DNA of 34,443 nucleotides, taken from NCBI GenBank assembly GCA_037139415.1, contig JBAXGN010000072.1:1-34443 (forward strand). The letters run 5' to 3'. Position numbers and translations under genes: made by a program. This document shows, one piece after another, positions 28,876 to 33,316 of the stretch (within the stretch, counting starts at the first letter, position 1; each line of letters begins with the position of its first letter). The stretch is from Verrucomicrobiota bacterium (GTDB lineage: Bacteria > Verrucomicrobiota > Verrucomicrobiia > Limisphaerales > Fontisphaeraceae). Below the pieces are notes generated by a model that was not told the origin of the DNA, made no database searches, and worked only from the letters and a program-made list of their open reading frames with translations.

Positions 28876-29265
28876 TTATTTCTTGCCGTAAATCTCTTCC
28901 GGTTTCTGGAGCTGGGGCTCGGTGACCTTGAAGGTCTCGCCCTGGTCCTCGATGCTGCGGAAGAAACAGGAATGGTACCCTTCATGGCAGGCCGCTCCAG
29001 TCTGTTCCACCTGAATCAGCAGCGTATCCCCATCGCAATCAAACGCCACATTTTTCACCACCTGCACATGTCCGCTGGATTCGCCCTTCATCCAGTATTT
29101 CTGGCGGGACCGGCTCCAAAAATGCGTTTTGCCGGTGGCGATGGTGGATTCCAGCGAAGCGCGGTTCATCCACGCCATCATCAGGACGCGTCCGGTGGAC
29201 TGCTCCTGGATGATGGCCGGGATCAGTCCGTTTGAATCAAACTTCAATTTGTCATAAAAGCTCAT
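28876..29265 (-). CDS. hisI: Phosphoribosyl-AMP cyclohydrolase
   Basis: A 129-aa enzyme of histidine synthesis that opens the adenine ring of phosphoribosyl-AMP. Conserved features: [49 protein letters not shown] with metal-binding Asp residues, and [14 protein letters not shown] with the zinc-binding cysteines. It is the standalone HisI form without the HisE domain, normal in length. No other his gene lies in the window. Start fixed by the family; no Shine-Dalgarno. Confidence 0.96.
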
Positions 29266-31184: not shown

Positions 31185-31568
31185 CTATTTGGCTGGCTGG
31201 ATCAACTCAATTTCATAACCCTCGGGCGCATCCACAAAGGCGATCCCGCCCCCGTCGGGCTTCAGGTGTGGCCCATCGGAGTATTTCAGATTGAATTTCT
31301 CCAAGTGTTTGGCGAAGGCCGTCAAGTCCTTCACCGCGAACGCCAGGTGGGTCAAATCCGGCTGCACCTGTACCGGGCCGCTGGCGGGGAAGTGGCAAAT
31401 CTCGATCAGCTCCTCGCTGCCGGGTGCTTTCAAGAAAACCAGTTCCGAACCGCGGAGCGACTTGTGGCGTTTGACTTCCGCCAAACCCAGCACGTCGACG
31501 TAAAAACGAATCGTTGCATCCAGGTTGTTTACCCGGTATCGCGTATGCAGTAATTGGCCAACTCTCAT
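31185..31568 (-). CDS. VOC-family protein (glyoxalase I-like)
   Basis: A 127-aa single-module vicinal-oxygen-chelate protein. MRVGQLLHTRYRVNNLDATIRFYVDVLGL carries metal ligand His8; ELIEICHF supplies a Glu, DLTHLAFAV a second His, and EGYEIELIQPAK the final Glu, so all four glyoxalase I-type ligands are visible. It could isomerise methylglyoxal-thiol adducts, but thiol type and substrate are unknown. ATG 31568 is chosen over an in-frame TTG at 31577. It is alone, divergent from the DksA-like gene. Confidence 0.88.
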   Translation of the reverse strand: MRVGQLLHTRYRVNNLDATIRFYVDVLGLAEVKRHKSLRGSELVFLKAPGSEELIEICHFPASGPVQVQPDLTHLAFAVKDLTAFAKHLEKFNLKYSDGPHLKPDGGGIAFVDAPEGYEIELIQPAK

Positions 31569-31785
31569 GGGTGACAACCATAACCGGAATTAGCCCCTTC
31601 GCCAAATCATTTTGGCGGCAGAATTCATGGGCTTGGACGGGAGTTCCCCACCCCAATCTGCGGGTGGCGGACTGGCTGCACCACGATGGCCAATCGAACA
31701 GGTAAAATTTTTATGAAAATTTTTGTGGCATATTCCCTTTTGTTTGGTACATTCGCGCACTCTTTAGGGTATCGGTTGGCAGCTA

Positions 31786-31798
31786 GCGGGATTCCCGC
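31786..31798. repeat. Small GCGGG-CCCGC hairpin in the leader of the DksA-like gene
   Basis: GCGGG (31786-31790) and CCCGC (31794-31798) around ATT. Lies 38 bases before the GTG start, in the leader. Short, so of uncertain meaning. Confidence 0.3.
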
Positions 31799-31836
31799 AG
31801 GCACAACGGAAACCATGAATTTTGTATTGATTAACT

Positions 31837-32442
31837 GTGATTACGAAGAAAAAAGTTGTCGTGAAGAAAGTCGTCGCCCCGGCCAAACCGCCGGAGGGGA
31901 AGGCTAAGCAACGCACGGTTGCCACCTCCTCCGCCATCTTGGGCCGCTCCGTTGGCCATACTAAAATTGGCAGCGCGGAAGACATCAAGCCGGAATGGCA
32001 GAAGTATCAGGTCATTTTGCTGGATTTGCGTGACCGGCTCATGCATCAGATGGACGGCTTGGCCAAGGATTCGGCGGAAGAGATGCAAAGTTACAGCTTG
32101 CACATGGCCGACTCCGGGACGGATAATTTTGACCGTGATTTCGCGTTGAGCCTGCTATCTGCGGATCAGGATGCGATTTACGAAATTGAGGAAGCCCTCA
32201 AGCGTATTGAAAAAGACACCTATGGCACCTGCGAGTTGACTGGGAAAGCCATTCCCAAGGCCCGCTTGGATGCCATCCCTTGGACTCGTTTTACCGTGGA
32301 AGCCCAGGCGCAGTTGGAGCGCGATGGCGCCCTGCGGCAGCGTCGCTTGGGTACGTTGGGCACCGTGGATAATTCAGGGGCGACGGATGTCGAAGATGGC
32401 GACTCTGACGAAGACGAAAAGCCCGTCAAGGAAAAGGAATAA
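31837..32442 (+). CDS. DksA/TraR-like regulator lacking the zinc cysteines
   Basis: A 201-aa protein. Basic N-terminus (KKKVVVKKVV), a coiled-coil domain about 55-125, then the globular domain YGTCELTGKAIPKARLDAIPW, and an acidic tail (DVEDGDSDEDEK). DksA binds the RNA polymerase secondary channel and works with (p)ppGpp. In E. coli DksA the zinc is held by C114, C117, C135 and C138; here the same-spaced positions are C132, T135, T153 and A156, so only one Cys remains and no zinc can be held by four Cys. Zinc-free DksA2-type paralogues are known in Pseudomonas. Start is GTG 31837; no clear ribosome site. The rpmG ATG begins 3 bases after its stop codon. Confidence 0.85.
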   Translation: MITKKKVVVKKVVAPAKPPEGKAKQRTVATSSAILGRSVGHTKIGSAEDIKPEWQKYQVILLDLRDRLMHQMDGLAKDSAEEMQSYSLHMADSGTDNFDRDFALSLLSADQDAIYEIEEALKRIEKDTYGTCELTGKAIPKARLDAIPWTRFTVEAQAQLERDGALRQRRLGTLGTVDNSGATDVEDGDSDEDEKPVKEKE

Positions 32443-32445
32443 TTT

Positions 32446-32613
32446 ATGCCGAGAGAAACAGTCATTATTGAATGTACGGAAGCGCGCAAAGAGGGCAAGG
32501 CGCCCTCGCGCTACACCACCACCAGGAACAAAAAGCTCAAGACGGAGAAGCTGGAGATCAAGAAGTACAATCCGAATCTGCGCCGTCGTACGCTGCACAA
32601 AGAAATCAAGTAA
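32446..32613 (+). CDS. rpmG: 50S ribosomal protein L33
   Basis: A 55-aa basic protein, [18 protein letters not shown], with the family stretch [25 protein letters not shown] and RRTLHKEIK at the end. It has one Cys (C10), not the CxxC pairs of zinc-binding L33, so it is the cysteine-poor form. It is shorter than 60 codons. A strong ribosome site, AAGGAAAAGGA, lies in the end of the DksA-like gene (about 32429-32439). Three bases separate it from the upstream stop, and 8 bases from rpsR. Confidence 0.95.
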
Positions 32614-32621
32614 ACGCTTAT

Positions 32622-32882
32622 ATGCCACGCAAAACGCATACGGAGAAGAAGGGGGAACGTAATTCCCGTTCGGCACGCAACGAGACGCGCACCCCCCGCC
32701 CAAAGCCCAAGATTGACTTCACGTTGGACGCCTTGGAGTTCAAGAACGTCAACTTGCTCAAACAATTTGTCACCGATCAGGGACGCATCCTGCCGCGCAA
32801 ATACACCGGTTTGCCCGCCCATTACCAGCGGCAGATGAACCGGGCCATCAAACGCGCCCGGCAGGCGTTGCTCATGAAATAG
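32622..32882 (+). CDS. rpsR: 30S ribosomal protein S18
   Basis: An 86-aa protein. An N-terminal basic extension (about 1-30, MPRKTHTEKKGERNSRSARNE) precedes the S18 core with LEFKNVNLLKQFVTDQGRILPRKYTGL and HYQRQMNRAIKRARQALLMK, the diagnostic C-terminus that contacts 16S rRNA. It contains no cysteine, so it is the form without zinc ligands. No Shine-Dalgarno precedes the ATG, which suggests translational coupling to rpmG. The terminator at 32930-32963 follows. Confidence 0.95.
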   Translation: MPRKTHTEKKGERNSRSARNETRTPRPKPKIDFTLDALEFKNVNLLKQFVTDQGRILPRKYTGLPAHYQRQMNRAIKRARQALLMK

Positions 32883-32929
32883 ACGGTTGTCCGTTGTTGT
32901 TCTGGATTTTAGCGCCGCGTTTGCGGCGC

Positions 32930-32963
32930 AAAAAAAGCCACGCGATGTCGCGTGGCTTTTTTT
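32930..32963. terminator. Bidirectional terminator, rpsR and the small basic protein
   Basis: An 8-bp stem GCCACGCG/CGCGTGGC (32937-32944, 32949-32956) with ATGT loop, flanked by seven A before and seven T after. It works as an intrinsic terminator in both directions: 48 bases past the rpsR stop and 13 bases past the stop of the convergent 53-aa gene. Confidence 0.93.
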
Positions 32964-32976
32964 AGGGATTCATGGG

Positions 32977-33138
32977 TCAAGCTTCTTCGCCGGTCCATTC
33001 TCCCAAATGGATGTATTCTTTGATTTTTCGCCGCTCATAACGGCTCTTTTGTGCTTTTTTTGGGCGGTTATCCGCTTTGCGGAAGGGGTGTTTTGGATTA
33101 CGAAGTGCCTCCACGATTACATCAAACGTTTTTGTCAT
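32977..33138 (-). CDS. Small basic protein of unknown function
   Basis: A 53-aa protein, MTKTFDVIVEALRNPKHPF then RKADNRPKKAQKSRYERRKIKE and EYIHLGEWTGEEA. Nearly a third of its residues are Lys or Arg, so it may bind nucleic acid or the ribosome. The ATG at 33138 has an excellent ribosome site, AAGGAAAG (complement of 33143-33150), one of the best in the window, which is why I prefer it to a longer frame up to 33216. It ends at the strong bidirectional terminator shared with rpsR. No family recognised; it is not the Chlamydia/Verrucomicrobia rRNA-associated small basic protein that I know. Confidence 0.72.
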   Translation of the reverse strand: MTKTFDVIVEALRNPKHPFRKADNRPKKAQKSRYERRKIKEYIHLGEWTGEEA

Positions 33139-33142
33139 GAGA

Positions 33143-33150
33143 CTTTCCTT
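33143..33150 (-). promoter_or_regulatory. Strong ribosome site deciding the start of the 53-aa protein
   Basis: Minus strand AAGGAAAG, 4 bases before the ATG at 33138. It argues against the longer open frame beginning at 33216. Confidence 0.6.
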
Positions 33151-33316
33151 TCTTTCGTGCGCCGCATGACGCCATGATACAGGGACACTACCACCTTGGG
33201 ATTTTCCTCGAAGCAACCTGTCAATTTAACGTTCATGACGGCCATCCATGATTGGACTGTGACACCATACACCACGTTCAATGGTTACTCAAATTTTTTC
33301 TACGCTTTTTTACATC

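Follow-up and report, generated by a model that had tools for sequence, protein, structure and literature searches.

In the stretch of DNA analysed here, the genes encoding a DksA-like protein and the ribosomal proteins L33 and S18 probably form a housekeeping unit of zinc-free sole copies, and the importer and regulator genes located beside this trio in relatives look like a separate, probably Zur-controlled unit. Judging from the sequences read, a zinc-free trio is the rule in the order Limisphaerales, and in this genome it is a fixed set without a switch. In zinc-sparing as described so far, paralogues are exchanged upon induction. In the present case no forms other than the zinc-free ones were found, and it is the zinc-uptake module adjacent to them in relatives that looks like the regulated part. 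The window, i.e. the whole stretch, is contig C72 with 34,443 nucleotides, part of a 7.90 Mb genome in 378 contigs (98.1% completeness, 1.5% contamination).

The DksA-L33-S18 trio

The three genes are encoded on the forward strand and separated by 3 bp (dksA/L33) and 8 bp (L33/S18). The first one (31837..32442, GTG start) encodes a DksA/YteA-type RNA polymerase factor of 201 amino acids lacking the zinc site, followed by the genes for the C-minus forms of L33 (32446..32613, 55 amino acids, PF00471) and S18 (32622..32882, 86 amino acids, PF01084). At positions 132, 135, 153 and 156 the DksA-like protein carries C, T, T and A, exactly as the first-pass annotation had read them, and thus no four-cysteine zinc site. 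The single cysteine reported for L33 (C10, in IIECTEARK) and the lack of any cysteine in S18 were borne out as well, and both proteins score over the Pfam cut-offs. C-minus L33 and S18 in Verrucomicrobiae are already published and, according to Table 2 of PMC3087516, forms of both proteins without zinc ligands are the usual state across many phyla; what is new is their setting in relatives. A hisI gene (PRA-CH, 28876-29265) is located 2.6 kb upstream of the trio on the reverse strand. HisI is named among the zinc enzymes with Zur-linked paralogues in PMC2770081; its position here is probably a coincidence.

The DksA-like protein matches PF01258 with 33.7 bits (cut-off 24.9), and stays under the cut-offs of both the DksA equivalog TIGR02420 (48.1 bits, cut-off 115.5) and the YteA subfamily TIGR02890 (72.3 bits, cut-off 134.4). 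An AlphaFold2 model based on 116 rows (mean pLDDT 81; 93-97 across most of the globular part and coiled coil, but 68-82 at the tip) displays the coiled coil, globular domain and C-terminal helix of the DksA fold. The best structural match is DksA2 of P. aeruginosa (4ijj; Z 13.3, 2.3 Å over 115 residues), followed by E. coli DksA (1tjl, Z 13.2) and Chlamydia DksA (Z 10.9), while the top match outside the family is a helical hairpin with a Z of 8.8. P. aeruginosa DksA2 coordinates no zinc and can replace DksA1, as stated in PMC9213440. Since DksA2 is active without coordinated zinc, such a fold can act zinc-free, and by analogy the protein of the window may fold and work without the metal, too. 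The first cysteine, C132, seems to be retained for the fold rather than for zinc.

Copy number and zinc proteins in the source genome

In a profile search, the dksA-like gene of the window was the sole match to PF01258 in the genome, and the only L33 match was the window's copy, too. For S18, one gene scored over the cut-off and four further matches were found below it. The first-pass annotation had proposed to look for zinc-binding (C-plus) copies of DksA, L33 and S18 in the complete genome; none was found, each trio gene being present once. Members of the FUR family (PF01475) were absent from the source genome at E <= 0.01, whereas the same search matched 14 out of 14 control genomes, 12 of them over the cut-off. 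A FUR gene or a second copy may have been missed in an assembly of 378 contigs and 98.1% completeness. The ribosomal proteins L31 (zinc ligands CACG and CNVC) and L36 (CENC, a third cysteine and one histidine) were each represented by a single match over the cut-off. A zinc-free ribosome in general was therefore rejected, since both proteins retain their zinc ligands. This differs from the Verrucomicrobiae entry in Table 2 of PMC3087516, in which L31 and L36 are listed as C-minus as well.

With only one copy of each gene, the trio is not a back-up set for zinc starvation. Of the two readings offered by the first-pass annotation, a zinc-sparing unit or an ancestral state of the lineage, the latter is favoured by the single copies, the lack of a FUR gene and the cysteine-poor proteins throughout the order genomes read. 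As far as can be told from the assembly, these are the only copies of all three genes, an outcome which that annotation had itself listed as speaking against zinc-sparing. A switchable cassette, in which Zur would silence the trio whenever zinc is plentiful, with zinc-binding paralogues serving in its place, is highly improbable. It would have parallels in zinc-sparing by Zur-regulated paralogues, the regulons of which include dksA, folE2 and genes for C-minus ribosomal proteins according to PMC6103462 and PMC2770081, and in relatives folE2, importer and regulator do adjoin the trio. Against such a cassette stand the missing C-plus partners, the missing FUR match and the copy number of S18, which was single in 50 of 50 matching genomes (58 searched, own included) and located on the dksA contig in 49 of them. 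S18 is essential; with its only gene in the trio, a shut-off in zinc plenty is hardly possible, and as a sole copy it needs a place outside any repressed unit.

Conservation of the trio in relatives

The gene order in relatives, raised in the first-pass annotation as a point to be checked, is conserved. Of the 59 order genomes read, the own one among them, 58 have the succession dksA-L33-S18, and the last one stops at a contig end. The same succession is present in 77 of the 80 named loci, while contig ends cut the remaining three; the named loci are the best 80 of 542 confirmed matches and hence near the window, with three copies of the own locus excluded. An arrangement recurring in this way is not due to chance. 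Outside the order, 141 of 164 matching genomes of the class were read (two of the unread ones, G048 and G364, are represented by fragments only). In these, dksA is followed by L33 and S18 in 59 cases, by S18 alone in 31, by L33 alone in one, by neither in 49 and by a contig end in one. L33 contains exactly one cysteine in all 196 rows (58 order, 78 named and 60 class rows), while S18 is cysteine-free in 57 of 58 order, 74 of 77 named and 70 of 90 class rows.

A DksA-like match was obtained in 49 of 57 near relatives, not counting the own genome. Both the dksA-like gene and the S18 gene are missing in eight of 58 genomes (G304, G316, G322, G326, G332, G336, G339 and G341), of which G322, G336 and G339 are at least 92% complete; either an assembly gap or a lineage without the locus accounts for this. 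Second dksA-like genes (L088-L098) were read eleven times in eight order genomes. Their products are 42-51% identical, all without the C4 site, and none is encoded beside L33 or S18.

The zinc neighbourhood

In many relatives, S18 is followed downstream by a ZIP gene or by znuA-znuC-znuB and then by a FUR-family gene, with folE2 upstream of the trio, as judged by Pfam in examples. Neighbours over the Pfam cut-off in the scanned examples belong to PF02649, PF02535, PF01475, PF01297, PF00005 and PF00950; the counts below were obtained with profiles built in this analysis. Of the 69 named loci offering 2.1 kb of room downstream, 49 have a zinc gene (ZIP, znuA or FUR) there; for the order regions the count is 25 of 34, a value biased upward as these regions were mostly picked for a linked FUR gene. 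Upstream, folE2 was found in 33 of 76 named loci with 1 kb of room. Outside the order, none of the 82 class loci with as much room downstream carries ZIP, znuA or FUR after S18. The folE2 gene, encoding a zinc-independent GTP cyclohydrolase, comes after S18 in some families there: among the genomes read, 23 of 25 in family f3, 6 of 6 in f8 and the single one in f15 show this position. The resulting order dksA-L33-S18-folE2 is seen, for example, in L301, L304, L310-L313 and L343. In one class locus (G422), a match to an ABC-ATPase was found after S18.

A FUR-family match was obtained in 54 of 58 genomes searched, the own genome not being one of the 54, and in about 20 the gene is located just downstream of the trio. 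Two linked regulators taken as examples score over the PF01475 cut-off. In NCBIfam, the neighbouring FolE2 scores over its cut-off, the ZIP protein has no match and the FUR protein stays under all cut-offs, being closer to Fur (118.5 bits, cut-off 220) than to Zur (28.2 bits, cut-off 167); a Fur is also the best PDB match of the linked protein. No conclusion is drawn from the FUR protein tree, in which all rows outside L377-L396 carry the label "linked" (an error in L351 and L352 at least) and L382 and L386 were added to that group by hand. From its context, namely a FUR-family gene that accompanies zinc importer genes downstream of a palindrome, we infer that the linked regulator is a Zur. 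L386 (G308) carries a linked-type FUR gene, with neither importer nor box in the 8 kb read.

Palindrome and terminator between S18 and the importer

A 7-1-7 palindrome, TTGCAAATNATTTGCAA, follows a terminator in the spacers between S18 and the importer genes of relatives. For spacer and upstream counts, named loci and G genomes, which overlap, were pooled after removal of near-identical stretches. At a working threshold of 15 bits, the box is present in 36 of the 38 distinct spacers that precede znuA and in 26 of the 35 that precede ZIP (missing in 2 and 9, respectively), as scored with a profile trained on the same spacers. An untrained dyad count gave a corresponding result: TGCAAA-N3-TTTGCA occurs in 39 of 79 S18-to-importer spacers, whereas any dyad in one shuffled set occurs at most twice (duplicates kept). 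Where no importer follows S18, the box was found in only one of 41 order loci, none of 82 class loci and none of five further short ones. A perfect TTGCAAATCATTTGCAA is located at L382:6866-6882 in G299, on the znuA side of a znuA-znuC-znuB-FUR unit that stands by itself, away from the trio. Box-like palindromes without a recognised importer adjoining were found at L390:7503 (22.8 bits) and L393:1117 (20.1 bits).

Upstream of dksA, this palindrome, the only one tested, was detected in none of 117 order and none of 84 class regions. The top dyad upstream of the first gene occurs in 6 of 107 regions, far below the spacer signal, and an operator upstream of folE2 or dksA was rejected because the dyad count there is nowhere near that signal. 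L179, with a box of 17.1 bits before folE2, was the sole positive among the 107 first-gene upstream regions. In the window, the region upstream of the trio (31579..31836, forward strand) did not reveal an operator-like palindrome. The best box scores were -4.6 bits in 31579-31900 and -10.0 bits in 32883-33300, so that the first-pass statement that no Zur-like box is visible holds for the palindrome defined here; the search for a Zur motif upstream of 31837, which it had suggested, did not turn up this palindrome. A consensus promoter scan of 31560-33300 yielded one site against 1.6 expected, and no promoter was placed.

An intrinsic terminator after S18 was predicted in 45 of 73 importer spacers (mean of 20 shuffles 0.65, maximum 2), while the other 28 have none by the strict rule. 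In all 41 spacers with both elements, the terminator stem ends 5-25 nt before the box. Terminator-like repeats after S18 are also found in 22 of 44 loci without importer, as expected for the last gene. With a terminator ahead of the box, the trio most likely ends there, the box being part of the importer unit. A single operon reaching from the trio through the importer is unlikely given this terminator. Both results weigh further against a Zur switch on the trio, since the box is missing upstream of dksA and the terminator stands before the importer unit. The first-pass intuition that the locus has to do with zinc was right in so far as znuACB or ZIP, FUR and folE2 are found beside the trio in relatives; even in these, terminator and box separate the importer from the trio.

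In the reading that we prefer, a housekeeping trio next to a separately controlled import unit, the loss of the zinc sites would lower the zinc demand permanently and not on command. In relatives, the terminator after S18 would be followed by the palindrome, the importer (znuACB or ZIP) and the FUR-family gene as a separate unit. The zinc-loaded regulator, presumably Zur, would bind the palindrome and repress only the importer and its own gene, and the trio would be always on outside the repressed unit.

The probably module-free site of the window

Between S18 and a convergent conserved gene encoding 53 amino acids (32977..33138, reverse strand), recognised by comparison with relatives as the right border of the site, the window contains no importer gene. 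An inverted repeat, A7-GCCACGCG-ATGT-CGCGTGGC-T7 (32930..32963), terminator-like on both strands, is located between the two genes. The terminator script found 10 pairs, while another scan missed the repeat, perhaps because the A and T runs pair. A longer reading frame over the 53-amino-acid gene gave merely a weak ThiC match. Among 135 genomes or loci of the order, with named loci and G genomes counted as they come and overlap kept, 45 have the border gene, convergent to the trio (e.g. L053, L199 and L365). It lies 69-411 bp after S18 in 14 of these without the module (101 bp in the window) and 624-5156 bp after S18 in 31 with it. In the other 90, many of which have little downstream sequence, it was not seen. 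Since this conserved border gene directly follows S18, the window most likely represents a module-free site and not a cut contig; a contig end as cause of the missing importer is unlikely for the same reason. In G288 and G289, both from the family of the window and among the 90, the module is absent as well as the border gene, and the FUR genes that they carry belong to other types; G289 is a single contig, of which 6.9 kb downstream of dksA were read. On the tree, module presence requires 24 changes, two of which are forced by starred branches.

Stepwise loss of the DksA zinc site

An intact CCCC site is present in none of the 59 Limisphaerales genomes read (own included; one lacks the first position due to a contig end) and in none of the 80 named loci. 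Among the 141 class genomes outside the order, 12 have CCCC. In other classes, 27 of 28 genomes read have CCCC and one CCTC, none of them linked to L33 or S18 within the sequence read; these 28 are the top-scoring PF01258 matches among those listed, which is a bias towards an intact C4 site. The one class displays CCCC, CCTC, CCDC, CSTC, CSSC, CSTE, CSTM, CTTA, CTSA and CTSG. Mixed states occur even within single families, with CCCC, CCDC, CCTC, CSTC and CSSC in f4 and CCCC, CCTC and CSTC in f120. The fewest changes on a DksA tree were 8 at position 135, 7 at 153, 3 at 156 and none at 132, on a weak tree calculated without the four zinc columns, from few columns, with a short search and with stars on 16 of its 113 inner branches. 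All 116 rows of the alignment carry C132. The zinc ligands of DksA, as they appear in these alignments, were lost stepwise within the class, and C132 is kept wherever read. C132 of DksA and C10 of L33 are alike in that each opens the former zinc site of its protein and is retained, while the other cysteines are lost; the conserved cysteine of L33 is presumably the first ligand of the C-plus form.

A tie between zinc loss and the gene order of the trio was rejected: 34 class genomes (f2, f5, f10, f11, f13 and f14) keep only C132 without linkage to L33 or S18, and G008 retains CCCC though linked to S18. The same two observations would fit a neutral loss of zinc sites in a housekeeping operon, with the zinc genes next to it in relatives being there by chance and functionally unconnected. 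We regard this as unlikely, as importers of two types and a FUR gene are found at this one position, with the zinc gene frequency in named loci given above, and folE2 adjoins the trio on either side, upstream in Limisphaerales and downstream in f3, f8 and f15. Somewhat less probable still is a take-over, in which the C-plus genes would have been displaced for good by a C-minus back-up set that was ancestrally under Zur control. The neighbourhood of folE2, C-minus DksA, L33 and S18, importer and FUR is indeed made up like a Zur regulon as described in PMC6103462. The intermediate DksA states, even within f4 and f120, favour erosion in place, however, and so does the one cysteine kept in every L33 row, which parallels C132 of DksA.

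Comparison with known systems

Besides the reading of the trio as a constitutive housekeeping unit, a wider picture can be put forward tentatively: an order whose sole S18, L33 and DksA are permanently zinc-free within a zinc locus, in which control is exerted on import only and TTGCAAATNATTTGCAA is the Limisphaerales Zur operator, and of which the species of the window dropped or never gained the regulated half. Such a locus or motif was not found in the literature on DksA or Zur in Verrucomicrobia, going by titles and abstract beginnings among the matches listed. If this picture is true, an adaptive response would have turned into a fixed trait, with living intermediates of the loss of the DksA zinc site, and an operator motif would be at hand for the prediction of zinc regulons in Limisphaerales.

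Chlamydia is a member of the PVC group, too. The DksA of C. trachomatis (6ptg) is the best PDB sequence match of the window protein (E 1.6e-20) and also lacks the full set of ligands, with C-S-T-S at the zinc positions; it differs from the window protein in that the identity in structure alignments is 23-31%. P. aeruginosa DksA2 has the same fold without zinc, its positions reading C-T-C-A compared to C-T-T-A here. According to PMC9213440, however, DksA2 is a Zur-repressed second copy beside the zinc-finger protein DksA1, whereas the gene of the window is a sole copy with neither a FUR match in its genome nor a box. The Zur-regulated zinc-sparing clusters of Pseudomonas, as described in PMC2770081 and PMC6103462, assemble the same kinds of genes, i.e. 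folE2, a dksA paralogue and an importer. In contrast to those clusters, the C-minus genes of the locus studied here are sole copies without a box, and the box goes with the importer-regulator unit.
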